Below are positions 30,560 through 41,003 of a DNA stretch of 41,282 nucleotides, piece after piece. This DNA comes from Nitrospirales bacterium (GTDB lineage: Bacteria; Nitrospirota; Nitrospiria; Nitrospirales; UBA8639): the NCBI GenBank assembly GCA_029261275.1, contig JAJDBR010000245.1:1-41282 (forward strand). Direction: 5' to 3'. Every line of letters begins with the position of its first letter. Within the stretch, counting starts at the first letter, position 1. The translations under genes and the position numbers were made by a program. The notes beneath the pieces were generated by a model. It ran no database searches. It saw nothing but the letters and a program-made list of their open reading frames with translations, and was not told the origin of the DNA.

Positions 30560-32866
30560 TTAGAACAGTCCCAGCGTGACTCCTCCAAAAACAGAGAGGG
30601 GAGGAGCTAGAAGAAATGCTTGCTTAGACGCATCGGCTGTGCTGTCAGACACGATGGCTCCGCTACCCATATACGTTTGATCGAAGAGATTTTCTACCTG
30701 TACATAGGCTTTGAATAACCGAACCCAACCCCATGCAACGTCCTGGGCATAATGGAGATTCACGTTCACCACGGTGGCGGCTTGAGCCTTCAGGGTATTG
30801 GCATTATTCACAAAATAATCGTCAATCCATGAAACCTCAAACCAGCCGCCTAACCCTGAAAGGTGATCATAGGCGGTTCGGAAATTCAACACATGTGGTT
30901 CTACAGCTGGGACATTTTTTCCGTCACGGTCGACCGAGGTGCCGATGCCTCCGACAAGAATAGTGTCGGTGAAATTTGTGAATTTGGCATTGACATAGGT
31001 ATATGCTGCAGAAAGTGTGAGTCCGTCAAGAGGCATCCATTCTGCGGCGACTTCGATTCCGCGGTATTCTGAAGAATCTGCATTGGTAGTAAAGCTTCCT
31101 GTTCCACCGACAACGGATTGTGAAATTAATTCGTCTTTGAAGAAGTTCCAAAATCCAATGAGTTGGAAATTAAAACGCGGATGAAGACGAACTTGGCCTC
31201 CTAGCTCCAAATTGATATTCCGTTCATCATCGAGGTCATTATTGGCACCGGGCAATCCTGTTGGAGAGGTCGTGAGGTTCCCAAAATTTGGAGTACCATA
31301 TCCGCCTGACACACGTGTCCAGTATCGATCATGTTCGTTGGGATGAAATTCGATAGAGACATCTGGGGCAACATTATGAAACTTGCGGTTGGCACTGGCT
31401 TTGCTAGTGACGGTTCCGCTGAAAAATCCAAAATTGACTTGATCGACGGATAAATGGGTTCGCTCGTACCCTAGCCCTGCTGCGATAGTCCATTGAGGAG
31501 CTAAGTCTAATTCTTCGCGGATACGAAATCCAACATTTCTGATGGAACCACGTTGGTTATTTATGGCATTTTGCTTGCTGCCTTTACCATCAGCCAAGTT
31601 GCGGAGATTCGTGGTTTCCGTTTCAAGGTACTCAAAAAATACTCCACCATGACTGCGAAGTGGCATCCCGAAGAAGTTGTACACATTCCGCACATCAGCG
31701 CGCGTTTTCCAATTGGGTTGTACTTGATCTAACGTTATCCCAAATTTTTGATTGATATCTTTATTATCGTAGAGCCCAGAGAGAGAGACCTCGGTGTCGG
31801 GAGTAATTTGATTGGCGTATCGACCACCGATGATGGTTCGGTGGTCACGGCGAGAACGATCATTGGCTTTTGCTCCTGTTCCTGCCTGTTTTGGTTGTGT
31901 TTGGAATTGCGTAAGTGTGAGTCGTTGAGGGGTCAGGACATCCAGGTCATTGTTGGCAGCCTTAAAGAAAAAGGTCTGTTGATCATCAATTTTGAAACGA
32001 AAATTGGCATCGACGGTGGTGGTCGAAAAATCGCTGTGATCTTGATAGCCATCACCTCGTTCATGGCTCACGAAGACGGCAGCGTCCATATGCTTATATT
32101 CTTTTCCAATAGCTGTTCCATATTTTTGATAGCCGTAACTGCCCACGCTGGTGAACGTTTCCACGCCATTGATGTCACTTCCTTTGCGCGTTCGAAAATT
32201 GACGATCCCACCCAGAGCATAGTTGCCATACAACGCAGATGATGCGCCTCGCTCGACATCAATGGCTTTCATAAACCAGGGGTCTTGCAAATCCAAGCGA
32301 GATAGGCCGTCTGATTGGGTGACGTCAAACCCATCTTCAAACACCCGAATCTTCTGAACACCGAATGCTTGTTTCGCCCCAAATCCTCGAATAGCAATAC
32401 TATAATCGCGTGGGCCATTGCGTTTGCGCAGAATGATTCCAGGTTGGCTTTCCAATGACTCCCTGAAATCTTTGGCAGGTTGGTTGTCAATCTGATTGCG
32501 ATTGACTGTTGAACGTGTGATGCCCTGTGGTGCTTGTTGAAGACGAGTGCTAACGACGGAGATTTCATCTAACACTGTTACTTCTTTTTCTTTCAGAACG
32601 GTCTTTGCTGTTTGCGTTGCTGACGAATTATTGGGCGTGGATTCCAGGGATTCAAGCTCGGCTTGAACACGACGCAGTTTCTCTGTGAGTATTTGAAGTT
32701 CCTTCTCTAATGTCTTTCGTTGTTCCAGTAAGGCTTCTTGGTTTACCGAAGAGCCTTCCGAAGTAGCCGGCAGAACTAGAGAAAGACTCATATTGAAGAC
32801 AATGAAGGCTATGCTGATAGGTATGTTGTGACTGACAGATGACATTAACCATTGGCGCATGTTCAC
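30560..32866 (-). CDS. TonB-dependent outer-membrane receptor with N-terminal coiled coil
   Basis: TonB box/plug 'VTVLDEISVVSTRLQQAPQG...DFRESLESQPGIILRKRNGPRDYSIAIRGFG...IDVERGASSALYGNYALGGIVNFRTRKG', C-terminal beta-barrel strands ending in aromatic 'GGVTLGLF'. Confidence 0.95.
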   Translation of the reverse strand: MNMRQWLMSSVSHNIPISIAFIVFNMSLSLVLPATSEGSSVNQEALLEQRKTLEKELQILTEKLRRVQAELESLESTPNNSSATQTAKTVLKEKEVTVLDEISVVSTRLQQAPQGITRSTVNRNQIDNQPAKDFRESLESQPGIILRKRNGPRDYSIAIRGFGAKQAFGVQKIRVFEDGFDVTQSDGLSRLDLQDPWFMKAIDVERGASSALYGNYALGGIVNFRTRKGSDINGVETFTSVGSYGYQKYGTAIGKEYKHMDAAVFVSHERGDGYQDHSDFSTTTVDANFRFKIDDQQTFFFKAANNDLDVLTPQRLTLTQFQTQPKQAGTGAKANDRSRRDHRTIIGGRYANQITPDTEVSLSGLYDNKDINQKFGITLDQVQPNWKTRADVRNVYNFFGMPLRSHGGVFFEYLETETTNLRNLADGKGSKQNAINNQRGSIRNVGFRIREELDLAPQWTIAAGLGYERTHLSVDQVNFGFFSGTVTSKASANRKFHNVAPDVSIEFHPNEHDRYWTRVSGGYGTPNFGNLTTSPTGLPGANNDLDDERNINLELGGQVRLHPRFNFQLIGFWNFFKDELISQSVVGGTGSFTTNADSSEYRGIEVAAEWMPLDGLTLSAAYTYVNAKFTNFTDTILVGGIGTSVDRDGKNVPAVEPHVLNFRTAYDHLSGLGGWFEVSWIDDYFVNNANTLKAQAATVVNVNLHYAQDVAWGWVRLFKAYVQVENLFDQTYMGSGAIVSDSTADASKQAFLLAPPLSVFGGVTLGLF

Positions 32867-33073: not shown

Positions 33074-34339
33074 CTAAGTGTTTGGCCAAGACATCACTTG
33101 AAGGACGGTGTGCCAACCAGGGAAGCGAATTTGCTCTTGCCAGGCTAGGATTGCTTGTCCGTGGGAATTGACGGCTACCGCAGGATGCTTCGATTTTTTC
33201 GTATTCAATTTTTCCGGAGCACTAAACGAGAGTCCGCGGTCCAATGAATAGCTCATCACGACTTCACGCCTGACTGGAGATTGTTCTTCCCAAATCACGA
33301 GAAGGCGGCCTTTGCGATCAACGGCCATTTGCGGGTGATCTGGGAAGGTGCCTTTGGAGACGTTCAGCTGACGTCGAGGGGTAAAGGTTTTTCCTTGATC
33401 ATCTGAATAGGCGAGATAGACGCCTGGAGTATCATCAGGGCCTTCTGTGTACCATGTGACGTAGAGGCGCCCTTGTTGGTCGGTTCCCATGGTCGCAGGT
33501 CGATGAGGGCACCCCTCGAACGCCCAGCGATCATGTCCGACGATGACCGCAGGAGAAAATGTTGCGCCATGATCAGTGGATCGAGTAACGACGGTCTCTC
33601 GAATGTTTTTAGGAAAAACTTTTCGCCAAGCAAGATATACCGTACCATCCGGTGCAGTCGTGGCATGTGTGCGGCAGCAGACACAACTCGTCTCATCAAT
33701 TTTCAGGTTTGGGGAAAGTGTCTGACCCTGGTCTTTCGAAAATGAGGAATAGGTAGCAGGGTCTTTTTCCCCTTCCCTGGCGTCCAGCCACACTATATGG
33801 ATGGAACCATCCTGGCCTACGGTGAGGTGGTCAAAGGAATGGCCGGTCACAGCATTGTCATCGTTGACTTGGATTGGCGGGAGAAATGTCTGTCCACCGT
33901 TAAGCGAGCGGCTTAAAAGGAGGAGGCTGGTAAAGAGTTTTTCTTTTGCGTTTGGATGGGGAGTCGTCCAAGTAAGGTAGACATCATTTTTCTTGCCTAA
34001 GGCCAGTGCTGGAGGTGCATGGAGAGACGCGGCAGGAGTAACGGGAGAATTGAGGTTTATGGGATGAGGAAGTGGTTCCTTTGAGTTGAACGGCGCTTGG
34101 ATATAATAAGTGCTGAGTTTCTTTTGGTTGGCTTCAATCCATGATAAATGAAATATGCCTGTATCAGACAATTGAATGGCAGGTCCTGAGACCGGCTTTG
34201 TGCCATGGTTTAAGCGAATTTTTTCCCCTAATGCGATAGATGAACGTGGCACATTTTGATCGGAATAACTCAATCCAGGGGCGATGAATCCTAGTGAGAG
34301 AAAACAAAGTGTGGCGATATATTTAATTTGGCAAGTCAT
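33074..34339 (-). CDS. Exported BNR/sialidase-like beta-propeller protein with CVCCRTHA motif
   Basis: Asp-box-like repeats 'SLNGGQTFLPP', 'SKDQGQTLSP', 'STDHGATFSPA', 'SDDQGKTFTPR', 'SLDRGLSFSAP'; signal peptide; 'DETSCVCCRTHATT'. Confidence 0.85.
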   Translation of the reverse strand: MTCQIKYIATLCFLSLGFIAPGLSYSDQNVPRSSIALGEKIRLNHGTKPVSGPAIQLSDTGIFHLSWIEANQKKLSTYYIQAPFNSKEPLPHPINLNSPVTPAASLHAPPALALGKKNDVYLTWTTPHPNAKEKLFTSLLLLSRSLNGGQTFLPPIQVNDDNAVTGHSFDHLTVGQDGSIHIVWLDAREGEKDPATYSSFSKDQGQTLSPNLKIDETSCVCCRTHATTAPDGTVYLAWRKVFPKNIRETVVTRSTDHGATFSPAVIVGHDRWAFEGCPHRPATMGTDQQGRLYVTWYTEGPDDTPGVYLAYSDDQGKTFTPRRQLNVSKGTFPDHPQMAVDRKGRLLVIWEEQSPVRREVVMSYSLDRGLSFSAPEKLNTKKSKHPAVAVNSHGQAILAWQEQIRFPGWHTVLQVMSWPNT

Positions 34340-34558: not shown

Positions 34559-35365
34559 CTACCTTGGATCATCAATGTCGTCATGTGTGTTCGTCCTTGC
34601 TACTTTTTGAGGCATATGAAAACTTAGTGGGTTTAATGCCTGGTAACTAACCCTTGCCTGTTCTTCAGCTTCAGGATCGAAAAATCCTTCGGACATGCCT
34701 GTTTCATGAAGATAGAGCGGTTGGTGAGGTTTCGGGTCTTTATTGTAAGTTTCGACCATTGAGTGAAACTTCAATCTTCCGGCTTCAATCCGGTCAATTT
34801 CATCGTCGGTCCCATACGTTACAGTTGGTGGATAGGGGCGGCATGAATCAATCGCCGCATTGATAATGGGTTGGAGTTGCAAAAAAGTGTTCAAAGCTTG
34901 AATGGCAATCGGTTGTTGTCTGGAAGGAAGTGTGGACACAAAGGCCCGTCGCGATATACCTGTCGGCCTATTCTCTGTAAAAATGATCGCTCGATCGGTT
35001 CGAAACGCAATTGCCCCATGAAGCAGGGCTCCATTCGAGAGATCGTCCAATGTGATGAAATGAGTATAATCTTTTCGTCGTGCTTCTCCACGATTCTGAG
35101 GGACATATTGTCCAGGAATCCGTTGAATAACCAAGTCACGATGGACAGCGGCTTTAATTCTGATACTTGCTCTTTGATATTGCTTTTTACAGAGGCTTGG
35201 ACTAAACGGTCTAGAATCTAACCTTAGATGAAATACTTCTTCAGCATGAGTGGGGGACGCCATGATTACCAGAAGCATGACGCCTCCAATTCCTGTCGTG
35301 AAAACTCTAATTGTGTTGCGACATCTTTTCAGTATCTTCGTTATCATGGTGATTTCCTTCCCCAC
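34559..35365 (-). CDS. Hypothetical exported protein
   Basis: Signal peptide-like 'VFTTGIGGVMLLVIMASPTHAEE'; co-oriented in TonB locus; no family recognised. Confidence 0.65.
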   Translation of the reverse strand: MGKEITMITKILKRCRNTIRVFTTGIGGVMLLVIMASPTHAEEVFHLRLDSRPFSPSLCKKQYQRASIRIKAAVHRDLVIQRIPGQYVPQNRGEARRKDYTHFITLDDLSNGALLHGAIAFRTDRAIIFTENRPTGISRRAFVSTLPSRQQPIAIQALNTFLQLQPIINAAIDSCRPYPPTVTYGTDDEIDRIEAGRLKFHSMVETYNKDPKPHQPLYLHETGMSEGFFDPEAEEQARVSYQALNPLSFHMPQKVARTNTHDDIDDPR

Positions 35366-35502
35366 ATAATGTCTCAGAATTCCGATTCTGGACCGGCGCG
35401 AAATGAACCTCGGGTGTCTGGATTAGGCGAATCAGAACAGCAAGAACATGTTTAGAGACGAGGTGAAAATGCTGCCATCATCACTGGGTTGCAACAGAAC
35501 GA

Positions 35503-35820
35503 TTATGGGAGAAGAAAAGGAGGACCGCGAGAGGCCGGGTGATGGCTGAAGCCAAGACTTGGGAGTGTTGGGCGAGGAAGGTCAAGAAGAGCAAGAATCT
35601 TCGAAGAATTTTCTACAAAAATTTGAAGAACATGAAGCCCTTGTCCTGCTTGGCAAGACCAGCTACACCAATCTTGCTCATGTGTCTGTTGATCATGCCC
35701 AGCGTGCTCGAGGTGCACAGAAAGGTTTTGTGTCAGGCCAGTACTAACGAAAAGAAAGCTGACCCCTAGGAATAGGCAGAAAAATTTGCGCATGAATGGA
35801 GACTGAGGAAGTAGAGTCAT
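35503..35820 (-). CDS. Small exported His/Cys protein, CxWxC family member A (DUF2946-reminiscent)
   Basis: Signal peptide 'FFCLFLGVSFLFVSTGL', 'HLEHAGHDQQTHEQDWCSWSCQAGQ', C-terminal 'SRGPPFLLP'; motif shared with 36435-36806 and 40701-41003. Confidence 0.7.
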   Translation of the reverse strand: MTLLPQSPFMRKFFCLFLGVSFLFVSTGLTQNLSVHLEHAGHDQQTHEQDWCSWSCQAGQGLHVLQIFVENSSKILALLDLPRPTLPSLGFSHHPASRGPPFLLP

Positions 35821-36000
35821 GTCTAACGAAAATTTGAAATGTAATCCCTAAATATTTTGCTCAACCTAACGGGTTTTCAAAAAACTGTCTACCTACTGCT
35901 GCTTATCAATGCTACACTTTTTATTACCTGTTGATGCTACGCATTTATGCACTTTCCTCTACAGATGAATGCGGTCACTTTCAACACTTCAGGCAAGAAA

Positions 36001-36207
36001 TTATCGCGTGCCAGTGGTGATCGGTTCCCAATAGTCTTTGCGGTTGTGTTCAACCAAGGTGTCAATTGAATCACGGAAGATACGCAAACTCCCTTTTCCG
36101 ATTTTCGTGGCTTTGAGACGGTCTTCTTCTACCCAACGGTAAATGGTCCACCGGCTCACGTTTAACGCCTTGGCGGCTTCGCTGACACGTAACAATTCTT
36201 GATTCAT
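36001..36207 (-). CDS. Excisionase/MerR-type helix-turn-helix DNA-binding protein
   Basis: 'LLRVSEAAKALNVSRWTIYRWVEEDRLKATKIGKGSLRIFRDSID' HTH_17 pattern. Confidence 0.85.
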   Translation of the reverse strand: MNQELLRVSEAAKALNVSRWTIYRWVEEDRLKATKIGKGSLRIFRDSIDTLVEHNRKDYWEPITTGTR

Positions 36208-36434
36208 TGCCTGCCCTCCTTAACACGCGAATAAAAGCGTTCCTCACGTTCATAACAATAACCAAAAGTTTTTCCCCTGAGATGAAATAGGTTCCTGGTT
36301 TCCTGAGCTGACGTTTTGCAGACTCAGGGAGTCGTGTATTAATCCCTAAAGAATCACAATGCAGAGGAAAGGTAATTGTTTCCTTGTCTGTGAATGGTAT
36401 TCATCACAATTGAGAACTGGGGATTGAGAAGGAA

Positions 36435-36806
36435 TCAGAGCAAAGGAGGTCCACGGGGGGTTGCAAAGGAAAAGGGAGAGGGAACTAAAGGAATGGCTAG
36501 GGGGAGTACGATTCTAAGAAGAATGAGAAGGGGAAGTGGAGTAAGGTTTTCTGTTGGCGTTGCCGAAGCGGTGATTTGCCCAACCTGGCATGCCCATACA
36601 CAGAGGATAGAAGTTGATGATTGATGATCCTGATGATGTGAAGGTTGGGGATTGCTTGCGGTTGAAGCACAAAATGTTCCAACCGCTATAAGAGTGAGGT
36701 GAATTCCAAGAAGACCGGCGACCAGAAAGGTGGTGAAGGAAGGCCTGGTGTCTACCCGCTTGAGGGACAGAAATGAATTGAGCTGAGAAGGTCGGTGGAA
36801 GCGCAT
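36435..36806 (-). CDS. Small exported His/Cys protein, CxWxC family member B
   Basis: Hydrophobic N-terminal segment, 'HHQDHQSSTSILCVWACQVGQ', C-terminal 'PRGPPLL'. Confidence 0.65.
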   Translation of the reverse strand: MRFHRPSQLNSFLSLKRVDTRPSFTTFLVAGLLGIHLTLIAVGTFCASTASNPQPSHHQDHQSSTSILCVWACQVGQITASATPTENLTPLPLLILLRIVLPLAIPLVPSPFSFATPRGPPLL

Positions 36807-36825
36807 TGGATTCGTATGGCAAAAA

Positions 36826-37236
36826 TTATTCTGAAGATGACGGTTGTGTTGCGATGCCCATACTGGTGATCCCGCTGAGACGAATGAGATCCATTACCTT
36901 AATGACTCGTCCGTGTGGGACATATTCGTCGGCATTGATGAGTAAAGAAGGATCCGATGATGTTTGTCGAAGGTAGGTTAGTCGTCTTTCGAGTTCTTCT
37001 AGTGTAATGACCTCTTTGTTGTAATAGAGTATGCCTTCTCGAGTCAGCGTAAGGGACACATGCTCGTCGAGGGAATCGGTTGAAGATTCGGCTGTGGGCA
37101 GTGAGACGGGCATACCATGCTGAAGGGTCATGGACAGGGTAGCGATCATGAAAAACACCAGCAAGAAGAACATGGTGTCAATCATGGGAATGATTTCGAT
37201 GCGCGGTTTCTTTTTGGCGGCGGCTGACAGTCTCAT
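36826..37236 (-). CDS. exbD: Biopolymer transport protein ExbD
   Basis: 'IEIIPMIDTMFFLLVFFMIATLSM', 'YYNKEVITLEELERRLTYL', 'LINADEYVPHGRVIKVMDLIRLSGI'. Confidence 0.9.
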   Translation of the reverse strand: MRLSAAAKKKPRIEIIPMIDTMFFLLVFFMIATLSMTLQHGMPVSLPTAESSTDSLDEHVSLTLTREGILYYNKEVITLEELERRLTYLRQTSSDPSLLINADEYVPHGRVIKVMDLIRLSGITSMGIATQPSSSE

Positions 37237-37844
37237 AGATTGGTGGGCTTGATCAGGTGTTGGAGCATGGCCTCGGTTTTCGTGGCAAAATGTTCGATCT
37301 TTTCGGTTTCTTGTTCCATTCGCGCGACGAAAAAATTGTAGGGGATTAGGGTGGTCACCGCGACAACAATACCCGCTGCGGTGCAGATTAGGGCTTCCGC
37401 CACTCCTCCGGTCACCGCATGGGGATTACCTAAGCCAGTTTGGGACATGATGCCAAATGAATCAATCATGCCGATGATCGTTCCCAATAATCCCAAGAGT
37501 GGCCCGAGGGTGATTACGGTATCCAATAGGGGAAGGCCGCGTTTCATCTTGGTAAGTTCGACAATGGCGGCAGCTTCCATGGCTTGGCTTGGATAGTTGG
37601 TGCGTTGGTGAACTCCTGTGGATATGACTCGAAGCACAGGGCTGGGTTGAGGCTCTGCGACGGCGAGTGCATCGGTGAATTTTTCTTGTTCGATAAGCGA
37701 GAGCATTTTCGGTGCCAAACGACTGGCTTGGAAATTTCTAAAATAGATGAATCGTTCAATGCTGACGGTAAGTGCGAGAAGAGAACAACCTATGATGGGA
37801 ATCATCATCCATCCCCCGCTCATGAGTAAGTTAAGAAATTTCAT
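37233..37844 (-). CDS. exbB: Biopolymer transport protein ExbB (MotA/TolQ/ExbB family)
   Basis: 'LPLLDTVITLGPLLGLLGTIIGMIDSFG', 'VTGGVAEALICTAAGIVVAVTTLIPYNFF'; start 37844 (MKFLNLLMSGG); overlaps exbD by 4 nt. Confidence 0.9.
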   Translation of the reverse strand: MKFLNLLMSGGWMMIPIIGCSLLALTVSIERFIYFRNFQASRLAPKMLSLIEQEKFTDALAVAEPQPSPVLRVISTGVHQRTNYPSQAMEAAAIVELTKMKRGLPLLDTVITLGPLLGLLGTIIGMIDSFGIMSQTGLGNPHAVTGGVAEALICTAAGIVVAVTTLIPYNFFVARMEQETEKIEHFATKTEAMLQHLIKPTNL

Positions 37845-37869
37845 CGGTGTACCTTCTCTGTGGGAGTCG

Positions 37870-38766
37870 TTAACTATTGAGGTCAAAGTTTATGGGGATA
37901 TCAACCCATTTTGCGATGGGGATGTTCCCATCTTTGGCTGGTTGGAAGATCCAGTTTTTCACGGCGGCTTGTGCCGCCTGATCCAATGTTGGATGTCCAC
38001 AGCTTTTACGAATTGAGACTTGGCTGGGAATGCCGTTTGTGTCGATGAGGGTACGAATAATGACTGTTCCTTCCCATTCAGATTCTCGTGCCACTCGTGG
38101 ATAAATCGGCTTGGATGATGACATGATCGTTGGGCGAGTCATCGTCGTTCCTGAATGAGCTGGTGGTGTGGCAGTGAGCCTCGGTGGTGCTGTCAATGTC
38201 GGTGGAGCGGGAAGTGACCGAGCTCCTGAATGTTTGTTTGTCACTATCGGCAACGGGGGCAAGCTCCGATTCTTAGACTTGGGGCGACGATTCAGAGTCG
38301 GCAAGGAATGTGCTGTCTGTTGGCTGTGTGGCTGCTCTCGCATTTTCATCATCGCTCTGGCTTTCATGGCTTCTGAGGCTCGGATATCTTTCAGGATTGA
38401 TTTCTCTGGAATAGGTGGGGGCAATAGGGACTGTTTCATGGGCGGTGAGGGCGTCAGGTTGGTCTGTAACGGAGGTGATGGAGCCTGTGACCGATTGAGT
38501 GGTGTCGGAGGGGCCATAGCCGGAGGCGCAGATTCCCGCATAATGGTGTGCGGATGTTGGGACGACGTGGGAGGGGGTGGCGTCTGAAGGATATCCGGCG
38601 CTGGCAATAATCTAACCTGAACCGTTGGGGGTTCATCCTTTACAATAGTGGAGTGTGGCATAGAGGCCCAGCTGGCCAGGAGCAAACCATGCACCAGAAG
38701 ACTGCCTAAAGCGCTAAGCACAAAAATTTGAGTATCGGAGTGGTGATCAGGAAATGTCGACGTCAC
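37870..38766 (-). CDS. tonB: TonB family energy-transducing protein (canonical, Pro-rich)
   Basis: N-terminal TM 'LSALGSLLVHGLLLASWASM' containing SxxxH, Pro-rich linker, C-terminal 'YPRVARESEWEGTVIIRTLIDTNGIPSQVSIRKSCGHPTLDQAAQAAVKNWIFQPAKDG'. Confidence 0.9.
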   Translation of the reverse strand: MTSTFPDHHSDTQIFVLSALGSLLVHGLLLASWASMPHSTIVKDEPPTVQVRLLPAPDILQTPPPPTSSQHPHTIMRESAPPAMAPPTPLNRSQAPSPPLQTNLTPSPPMKQSLLPPPIPEKSILKDIRASEAMKARAMMKMREQPHSQQTAHSLPTLNRRPKSKNRSLPPLPIVTNKHSGARSLPAPPTLTAPPRLTATPPAHSGTTMTRPTIMSSSKPIYPRVARESEWEGTVIIRTLIDTNGIPSQVSIRKSCGHPTLDQAAQAAVKNWIFQPAKDGNIPIAKWVDIPINFDLNS

Positions 38767-39809
38767 GACCCAACCCGTTTCAGGAGTTTGGCAATTCGCT
38801 CATCCTGTCCCCCAAGCTTCACATATTCTTTGTAATATTCCAGAGCTTTTTCTGAGTCATTAAGGTGAAATTCATAGAGCAGCCCCAAATTGTAATGGGC
38901 TTCGGATAAATCTGGGTTGAGGGCTAATGCGGCCCGGTACTGCTCTTCTGCCAACTTCAGTTGGGAAAGGGCAGCATAGACCACGCCTAAGTTAATATGG
39001 GCTTCGGAATTTTCCTGATCCAGCCGGAGGACATTTTTGAACGCCTCGGCTGCTTCTGTGTATTGTTCTTGTTGTTGGTACAACATTCCCAGATTGAAAT
39101 ACGGGTCGACGAGTTGTGGGTGGAGATCGATCACCCGTTGATAGGCGGCGATAGCTTTTTGGGTCTGGTCCGACTGCTGCGCCAATGCTCCTATCATGAG
39201 CCACCCATTCAAATGTTCAGGATTTTGGGCCGTCAATTGTTCAACATACGGCTGTGCCCGCTCGGGCTTGTCCTGCTGTAGGAACCAAAAGGCTAGGCCG
39301 TACAGTGCGTCAAGGTAATGAGGATCCAATTCTAAGACCTTCTGATGTGCTTCTATGGCCTGGGTGGCATCTTGACGTTGATCAAAAAGCGCAGCGAGTG
39401 CCGTCCAGCCTTCCAGATAATGCGGGTAGATCACTGAGGCCTGCCGAAAAGCCTTTTCCGCTTGTTCGAATTGGAATTGATCTTGATAGACAAACCCTAA
39501 ATCCACATACGCTTGAGCAAACGAGGGATAAGCATTGACGGCTTTTTTCAGTGCGACAATGGCCTGTTCCGGTAGGTTGAGTTGGGTCAAGACTAAGCCC
39601 AATAGGTGATGCGCTTCAGCATAGTTAGGATAGAGATGGATCGCATGCTCCAAGGGAGCTTTGGCGGATGCCCACTGATTGTGCTGATAGGCGGTATAGG
39701 CCTGAGAGAAGAGGTCTTGAGCCTCTCCGGCATGACTGTTTGTTTTAGGGCTGAATAGTAAGATGATGGTATAAAACAAGAAAAGATAGGTATTTCGATT
39801 AGAATTCAT
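38763..39809 (-). CDS. Exported TPR-repeat protein (paralogue of 29261-30331)
   Basis: Signal peptide; ~8-9 TPR units; overlaps tonB start by 4 nt; 'EAHHLLGLVLTQLNLPEQAIVALKKAVNAYPSFAQAYVDLGFVY'. Confidence 0.85.
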   Translation of the reverse strand: MNSNRNTYLFLFYTIILLFSPKTNSHAGEAQDLFSQAYTAYQHNQWASAKAPLEHAIHLYPNYAEAHHLLGLVLTQLNLPEQAIVALKKAVNAYPSFAQAYVDLGFVYQDQFQFEQAEKAFRQASVIYPHYLEGWTALAALFDQRQDATQAIEAHQKVLELDPHYLDALYGLAFWFLQQDKPERAQPYVEQLTAQNPEHLNGWLMIGALAQQSDQTQKAIAAYQRVIDLHPQLVDPYFNLGMLYQQQEQYTEAAEAFKNVLRLDQENSEAHINLGVVYAALSQLKLAEEQYRAALALNPDLSEAHYNLGLLYEFHLNDSEKALEYYKEYVKLGGQDERIAKLLKRVGS

Positions 39810-39840
39810 CTTTCCGTCCTTTTGCGTGGGTCGAAAGCAT

Positions 39841-40446
39841 TTACTGTACTAAATCAAATTGAATAGGAATATTGACGGTGGCGGCCACCGGAAAACCACC
39901 ATTCCTTGCTGATTGAAAAGTCCAGAGTGTTGCAGCCTTGATGGCATGGTCATCCAGGAGTGGATAGCCAGAACTTTTGTGGATACTGCCAGATTCTACT
40001 TTCCCGTTGGGCGCAATCTTCAACCGCACGATGACCCGACCGTGCCACCCCTGTTCACGAGCTCGTCTCGGGTATGGTGGGTGTTCTGTTTTCAATGGCT
40101 TAACCGGAGTATGGAGATTTGTGGTTTTGGCTGTGTGATCCAAAAGGATGCGCGACTGAGGAGGGATTGGCTTCATGATTTTCAGTTTTGGAAGAATCAA
40201 GTGGGTAGTGAGGCTCAGGGGATCATGTGTTGGCAATATAGGAATTGGAAATTTTAGGTCCCGAGGTGCCTGTTTAATCACTGCCCCTGTAATTTCTATT
40301 ACCTCTAATGTTTCAATCTCTTCCATGGCAGGCTCCATGCTGTGAGCGACGACCAGAGGGGAAAGAATCAATATGGCTGTTAACCAGAAGCTACCCTGAT
40401 ATGATACCCTTAGTGGAGAGAATATGAGAAATTTAATTATGGCCAT
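39841..40446 (-). CDS. Second TonB C-terminal-domain protein, atypical N-terminus
   Basis: 'HPPYPRRAREQGWHGRVIVRLKIAPNGKVESGSIHKSSGYPLLDDHAIKAATLWTFQSARNGGFPVAATVNIPIQF'; start 40446 preferred within ORF ending 40488. Confidence 0.85.
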   Translation of the reverse strand: MAIIKFLIFSPLRVSYQGSFWLTAILILSPLVVAHSMEPAMEEIETLEVIEITGAVIKQAPRDLKFPIPILPTHDPLSLTTHLILPKLKIMKPIPPQSRILLDHTAKTTNLHTPVKPLKTEHPPYPRRAREQGWHGRVIVRLKIAPNGKVESGSIHKSSGYPLLDDHAIKAATLWTFQSARNGGFPVAATVNIPIQFDLVQ

Positions 40447-40700
40447 TACACCCTGTTCTTTACTATAGGACTGTATCTTTCTCTGCAATCTTATCAGGTT
40501 CTAGGGCCCCGATCTTTGGGAACTATAGCTAGCTCACCCTGAAAAATCACGGGAATGGTTCCCCTGAATGATCCAATACCTCATGAGTGAAGTCACCAAG
40601 CCAGATCCCCTTGGCTTAGCTAGGCTACGAAATTTTCGCAACCAGCAGCTGGTCTAAGAGGTGCGTCGGGAGTACGGTAAAGGATAAATTTTCACAAAGG

Positions 40701-41003
40701 TCAGATCGGGGGAGCTCGGCTGGGAAGGAAAATCTGACGAGGAGCCTTGATCAATGAAGGGGATAGTGGCTGTAAAATGTCGAGTGGTGAAATTTCCGGC
40801 GAGAAAACTTGCGCCTCAGTAGATAGGGCTTGTGCAGCTGTGCACATCCAAGCACAAATACCGGTGGTGTGGGTTTGCGAGGAATGATGCTGATGATCAA
40901 TGGCATGCAAGGCCATATCAGCCTCTAGAGAACCCATGACAAAGATGAGCACCATCGTGAAGGCCAGTGAGAGAGATTTGAGAAATGGCATCATCGAATG
41001 CAA
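40701..41003 (-). CDS. Small exported His/Cys protein, CxWxC family member C
   Basis: Signal/TM 'SLAFTMVLIFVMGSL', 'DHQHHSSQTHTTGICAWMCTAAQ', C-terminal 'SRAPPI'. Confidence 0.65.
   Translation of the reverse strand: MHSMMPFLKSLSLAFTMVLIFVMGSLEADMALHAIDHQHHSSQTHTTGICAWMCTAAQALSTEAQVFSPEISPLDILQPLSPSLIKAPRQIFLPSRAPPI

Follow-up and report, generated by a model that had tools for sequence, protein, structure and literature searches.

The window analysed here, a 41,282-nucleotide stretch of DNA from a Nitrospirales bacterium (metagenome-assembled genome, assembly GCA_029261275.1, contig JAJDBR010000245.1), carries three small open reading frames (ORFs), A, B and C, beside genes of the TonB uptake system. 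Judging from their sequences and from analogy with characterized systems, A, B and C are probably regulatory leader ORFs of the CruR/CutF kind, whose products would act in cis as nascent-chain metal sensors. A first-pass annotation of the window had described the three as small exported proteins, each with a His-rich stretch, a C-x-W-x-C motif and a C-terminal R-[GA]-P-P, and we recovered both the ORFs and the motifs where it had placed them. All window features given with coordinates below lie on the minus strand.

Leader ORF A (35503..35820) encodes 105 residues, comprising a signal-peptide-like helix, a His cluster, the putative metal site CSWSC (codons at 35653..35667), a 41-residue linker and RGPP followed by a four-residue tail. 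The codons of this putative arrest motif, the function of which is taken from PMC12992588, are CGC GGT CCT CCT (35518..35529). In the 123-residue product of B (36435..36806), an N-terminal hydrophobic helix and then a Cys precede the His cluster, the putative metal site CVWAC (36588..36602), a hydrophobic linker of 44 residues and RGPP (CGT GGA CCT CCT; 36444..36455). C (40701..40994) encodes 97 residues from the ATG at 40994 and contains CAWMC (40842..40856), a 41-residue linker and RAPP (CGA GCT CCC CCG; 40707..40718) plus one residue. An alternative TTG start at 41003 is also open and would give 100 residues, the ATG being the likelier of the two. The secretion signals were assigned from the N-terminal hydrophobic helix, without a signal-peptide predictor. 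A fourth copy is found on another contig (C271) of the same genome (L058:3683-3988, CSWYC ... SRAPPSV), upstream of a 387-residue gene that lacks a Pfam match and whose product clusters with the Phenol_MetA_deg-type outer-membrane partner of other copies. At that locus (L058:2305-3988) the fourth copy leads this outer-membrane-like protein and a 268-residue exported protein with a carboxypeptidase-regulatory-like domain.

To define the extent of the family, we searched with B as the sole query, which found relatives in 47 of 59 related genomes. At E <= 1e-6, a profile built from 50 members then had matches in 110 of the 295 Nitrospirota genomes; a single genome carries as many as nine copies, and nearly all matches fall within the window's own order and class. 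Across these relatives, many of the motif-bearing homologues lie beside TonB-system genes, as the annotation had said of A, B and C, so the family proposal passed the HMM check that the annotation had set for it. Alignment of the 50 members leaves only five invariant columns, namely both Cys, the Arg and both Pro; the Trp is nearly invariant, while the linker between the Cys pair and R-x-P-P is highly diverged and unconserved. By these sequence criteria A, B and C are one paralogous family, as had been proposed.

The family keeps a fixed distance across that linker. In order to limit circularity, we built a hidden Markov model (HMM) that covers only the N-terminal half and stops shortly after the Cys pair, and with it we scanned every ORF of the fetched loci. 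Because full-length queries had been used to fetch these loci, their sampling still depends to some degree on the C-terminus. All 110 unique Nitrospirota ORFs recovered carry R-x-P-P 41-44 residues past the second Cys, although the first screen had allowed any spacing between 15 and 80 residues. The same was true of 170 of the 171 non-redundant members in the larger genome set. The single exception, a copy in L104 labelled as TonB-linked, ends before RxPP and looks decayed. The motif variants were RAPP (93), RGPP (74), RSPP (2) and RPPP (1). CxxxC is present in all 171 members and CxWxC in 167, and 98% have at least three His within the 30 residues before the first Cys. Among 3,818 mechanically called ORFs of 70-250 codons, C-terminal R[AG]PP was confined to 129 family members plus 15 further ORFs, several of them resembling additional leader peptides. 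The control motifs A, K, Q and S[AG]PP occurred 2, 0, 0 and 1 times in the same set, and R[AG]PP was absent from 12,012 residues of long ORFs in the window. The pattern of motif and spacing is far beyond chance.

Other small ORFs with similar ends were seen in these genomes. Minus-strand ORFs in L101 (two) and L103 belong to what looks like a second, unrelated family of small proteins, marked by W-A-C, a conserved PEVPRLPI stretch and GRGPP at the C-terminus; it is probably a further set of RGPP leader peptides in Nitrospirota. Additionally, the family HMM missed small RAPP-ending ORFs in L109 and L112 ('CGGDCQN ... SRAPP') and at L048:17655-17990 ('CYSFCQHP ... LRAPP'), which suggests still more RAPP leader types.

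Several results bear on whether the leader peptides are made and what they look like. Within orthologue sets, the pairwise ratio of nonsynonymous to synonymous substitution (dN/dS) was mostly 0.12-0.45, with one pair at 0.55; for A and B it was 0.12-0.38, and for C 0.13-0.37 where dS could be estimated. The R, A/G and P codons of R[AG]PP vary synonymously in these sets while the residues are retained. The dN/dS values indicate that A, B and C are translated and under selection at the level of the peptide. AlphaFold2, run on a shallow alignment, was confident only for the N-terminal signal helix (mean predicted local distance difference test score 55.9, and about 50 beyond residue 31). Searches of Pfam, NCBIfam and PHROGs with A, B and C gave no match above cut-off, and comparison of the family profile with solved structures, like a plasmid search for the family, returned chance matches only.

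We next consider the genes that the leaders precede. By cluster, the gene after the leader encodes a Phenol_MetA_deg-type outer-membrane protein (43), a TonB-dependent receptor (29), a ResA/TlpA-like thioredoxin (16), unk268 (14), a 520-residue protein with a weak propeller match (12) or TonB (10), and the median gap to it is 104 nt. unk268, a 268-residue exported-looking protein encoded downstream of A (34559..35365) and a conserved partner of A-type leaders, matches nothing in Pfam, NCBIfam or PHROGs. A tree of 170 leaders, built from few columns and with many unresolved forks, unites the unk268-linked (A-type) leaders (support 96) and, separately, the propeller-linked leaders (support 87), while the receptor-linked leaders require three changes. 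Over all labels, the downstream gene type changes 17 times on the tree versus 69.8 expected by shuffling. Leader lineages are thus, as far as their sequences tell, tied to one type of downstream gene, in keeping with the diversification of copies suggested by the annotation. The spacing also tracks the target, being 41 residues for TonB- and unk268-linked leaders and 42-44 for all receptor-linked leaders but one.

Many copies sit inside operons. B starts 19 nt after exbD and is therefore within a transcription unit, and the same position after exbD was found in nine other loci. Receptor-linked copies usually start a few bases from the stop of a preceding BNR or thioredoxin-like gene, and for 24 of 29 an ORF on the same strand lies no more than 60 nt upstream of the leader start (mechanical ORF calls). 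A first-in-operon position is plausible for A- and C-type leaders and fails for B and for these 24 receptor-linked copies.

To analyze how such leaders might control the next gene, we examined nucleotide signals in 124 loci. A C>G bubble covers the region from linker to stop in 98-99% of them, peaks at +20 percentage points and fades within 40-60 nt past the leader stop. When corrected for the codon usage of the same locus, the third-position C excess in this region is small (10.8 versus 7.4, p=3e-4), and it is absent from the N-terminal part of the leaders; after this correction we downgraded the bubble as stand-alone proof of a Rho-utilization (rut) site. Intrinsic-terminator-like sites occurred in 9 of the 124 loci only. 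Downstream start regions (-60..+30) showed no excess structure in a crude simple-fold test (mean z -0.29, 8% below -2), and at the resolution of that test we rejected the idea that stem-loops generally act by sequestering the Shine-Dalgarno sequence. C and A are preceded by promoter-like sites, but sites of this kind are no commoner than in shuffled sequence. Because the start regions have no excess structure, terminator-like hairpins are few and the C>G bubble is present, we lean towards Rho-dependent attenuation as in CruR over a start-site stem-loop as in CutF.

The following mechanism would account for these features. During translation, the N-terminal signal or hydrophobic segment would direct the leader to the membrane, and the ribosome would stall at R-A/G-P-P near the C-terminus, a motif proven to arrest in CruR, ApdA, ApdP and other peptides. 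At the stall, the Cys/His site 41-44 residues back would have just reached the mouth of the exit tunnel or be on its way into SecY. Given standard tunnel length, the second Cys should be about 43-46 residues from the peptidyl-transferase centre, and just leaving the tunnel, when the P site holds the third motif residue. Binding of a metal there, Cu(I) most likely, could cause folding or a pulling force that either releases the stall (CruR mode) or prolongs it (CutF mode). Whether or not a ribosome covers the C-rich end of the ORF would then decide if Rho can terminate transcription before the next gene, the presumed targets being tonB1-exbBD for C, unk268 and the BNR and receptor genes for A, and the HTH gene onward for B. 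For these proteins arrest, metal identity, polarity and Rho dependence are inferences.

Some observations weigh against this explanation or parts of it. Amino acid composition accounts for the greater part of the C>G bubble, the linker being rich in Ser, Pro, Ala, Thr and Leu and poor in Lys, Glu and Arg. B directly follows exbD with only the HTH gene next, which makes its target less clear. The likeness to DUF2946 (PF11162) noted by the annotation is upheld as that of a divergent relative, below the level of formal membership. Against a curated cut-off of 23.7 bits, B scores 19.6, C 16.2 and A gives no match; nearly all members likewise fall below, and a whole-genome scan found none of 59 genomes above the cut-off. 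A profile relation does exist, since 11 of 50 members match PF11162 at E<0.1 and one relative (L051:13572-13919) scores exactly 23.7 over profile positions 30-117 of 117. Copper as the sensed metal is guilt by association: several partners are thiol-redox proteins, and by composition no striking Met content marks the common outer-membrane partner. With no support from composition, we rejected the idea of a Met-rich copper outer-membrane partner.

We nevertheless consider copper the most likely metal, because of the CruR precedent and because one relative (L049) has a leader-receptor-PepSY_TM order as in cruR-crtA-bp2921. Sensing of thiol redox or of another metal (Fe, Zn, Ni or Co) by the same kind of leader is the less probable choice, though one to be taken seriously. 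In its favour, ResA/TlpA-like thioredoxins, a DsbA-like protein and VKOR occur near members, and His-only CutF-like proteins adjoin Ni/Co genes (PMC9973294). However, the combined Cys and His sites and the receptor with its PepSY_TM neighbour favour copper together with the CruR precedent, and cruR, too, often has AhpC/TSA and Sco genes beside it (PMC9426467). Leader ORFs of CutF polarity, in which metal would promote or prolong the stall and thereby switch on the genes that follow, perhaps through the opening of a start-site stem-loop, seem distinctly unlikely. They would share with CutF its Cys spacing and Pro-rich end (PMC9973294), but the start regions lacked excess structure in our crude test, most gaps exceed the <100 nt that is usual for CutF-like genes (PMC9973294), and the downstream uptake genes better fit repression by metal, as in CruR.

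Readings without metal-controlled stalling fare worse. The annotation had offered metallochaperone, substrate presenter and sensor as possible roles, of which only the sensor is favoured; the arrest motif, the fixed spacing and the CruR layout argue against the other two. Stable secreted metallochaperones or metal buffers that pass metal to TonB receptors could explain the signal-peptide-like N-terminus, the His cluster, the Cys pair and the TonB-gene neighbourhood. We consider them very unlikely, because besides the Cys pair the most conserved part is an arrest motif at a fixed distance over an unconserved linker, which matches the leader-ORF layout of CruR and not a folded chaperone. The only confident part of the AlphaFold2 model, from its shallow alignment, is the signal helix, the leaders sit just upstream of presumed target genes, and neither CruR nor CutF was detected as a mature protein (PMC9426467, PMC9973294). 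Secretion monitors of the SecM/ApdA type, in which pulling by Sec frees the stall and export capacity rather than metal is reported, are the least probable explanation we weighed. RAPP peptides often control Sec genes (PMC10987492), and secA (Pfam match, L038:15314-18028) adjoins a C-type leader in a relative, with ORFs of about 900 residues, the same in size and place, in L044, L045, L046, L049, L050, L052 and L053. That secA is transcribed divergently, however, and was rejected as a cis target of C; the targets are TonB and receptor genes, and the invariant Cys pair and His cluster would have no role in a pure Sec monitor. Indeed, it is the His cluster before the Cys pair that leads us to favour metal sensing over pure export sensing.

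If A, B and C are nascent-chain metal sensors, a wider proposal follows, which we hold tentatively and at somewhat less than even confidence. Nitrospirota may possess a distributed nascent-chain metal-sensing network of up to nine stall-type paralogues per genome, each durably assigned to one target module and several lying between genes of one transcription unit. Metal would then gate the genes of a single TonB uptake locus one by one, with no dedicated protein regulator. This would suggest that metal-gated stalling, known from a few Proteobacteria, is a main Nitrospirota control of TonB-dependent uptake, including gates inside operons. Anonymous small exported proteins of nitrite-oxidiser relatives, most of them encoded by genes invisible to current family models, become a testable gene-control system. 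The family is also a large natural mutagenesis set (171 sequences, a fixed 41-44 residue spacing and a free linker), usable to ask how metal binding at the tunnel exit signals to the peptidyl-transferase centre.

On the minus strand of the window the genes run C, tonB1, TPR, tonB2, exbB, exbD, B, HTH_17, A, unk268, BNR protein, TonB-dependent receptor and TPR. The energising operon led by C begins with tonB1 (39841..40488; TonB_C 8e-23) after an intergenic region of 212 nt (40489..40700), longer if tonB1 starts at an internal ATG, and continues with the TPR protein, tonB2, exbB and exbD (36826..39809; gene calls and profile matches). B is followed after 227 nt (36208..36434) by a small HTH_17 or excisionase-like DNA-binding protein (36001..36207; profile match), which is 63-94% identical across relatives and is often kept between B-type and A-type leaders. 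A 137-nt region (35366..35502) separates A from unk268. Farther downstream of A lie the BNR-repeat protein (33074-34339) and the TonB-dependent receptor (30560-32866). The BNR-repeat protein has a CVCC motif, recurs beside these receptor genes and is possibly a metal-site protein. The receptor is 84-87% identical to those of the metagenome-assembled genomes 'Nitrospirales bacterium OFTM334' and 'OFTM76'. Two close relatives (L031 and L032) have an additional leader ORF between the BNR gene and the receptor that is absent from the window.

Arguably the closest known system is CruR (Bordetella pertussis bp2923, DUF2946), the copper-responsive leader ORF of cruR-crtA(bfrG)-bp2921, which precedes a TonB-dependent transporter and has CXXC, 45 residues and RAPP (PMC9426467). 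That gap is kept within 1-2 residues in >2000 DUF2946 proteins, and adding five residues to it breaks copper control, as does mutation of the Cys, while RAPP mutants abolish expression of the downstream receptor (Roy 2022, PMC9426467). CruR is predicted to be poorly structured, a C>G bubble in cruR carries the Rho site (PMC9426467), and its arrest has been demonstrated in vitro (PMC12992588). The Nitrospirota family shares with CruR the small exported protein, the Cys pair at a fixed distance from a C-terminal RAPP, the long gap, the TonB-dependent transport neighbour and the 3'-end C>G bubble. In contrast to CruR, it has C-x-W-x-C with a His cluster and never CXXC, its spacing is conserved likewise but is 1-4 residues shorter, and RGPP is nearly as common as RAPP. 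There are several copies per locus, the targets include TonB/ExbBD modules and many copies are internal to operons; since Roy et al. place DUF2946 genes systematically first in the operon (PMC9426467), this placement is a real architectural difference.

Similar to the family, CutF of the Rhodobacter capsulatus cutFOG operon has CxxxC, a signal peptide, a Pro-rich end and a cis position (PMC9973294). CutF, however, activates a multicopper oxidase via a stem-loop over the start site (PMC9973294), a structure that we did not find in the family, where gaps are mostly longer. Among arrest motifs, RAPP and RGPP are the strongest and depend least on context (PMC12992588), and they arrest ribosomes in many settings (PMC12992588, PMC10951233). 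As in ApdA, ApdP, ApcA and the S. lividans set, a small secretory protein carries R-A/G-P-P close to its C-terminus and is followed by a co-directional gene; unlike them, the family is paralogous and multi-copy, has a Cys/His site and is often intra-operon. Because the family falls short of formal DUF2946 membership, spaces its Cys pair as CutF does and resembles CruR in its arrest end and gap, we regard it as a divergent DUF2946-related branch that would work like CruR. The general principle is not new, since RAPP/RGPP leader ORFs of a TonB-related class have already been reported from Gram-negative phyla at large (PMC12992588). In the papers we searched there was no description of the Nitrospirota paralogue network, the C-x-W-x-C variant or the internal placement. 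What is new here, relative to CruR, CutF and the known arrest peptides, is a sensor with C-x-W-x-C and a His cluster, up to nine copies per genome, the linkage of leader lineage to target and the many intra-operon copies.

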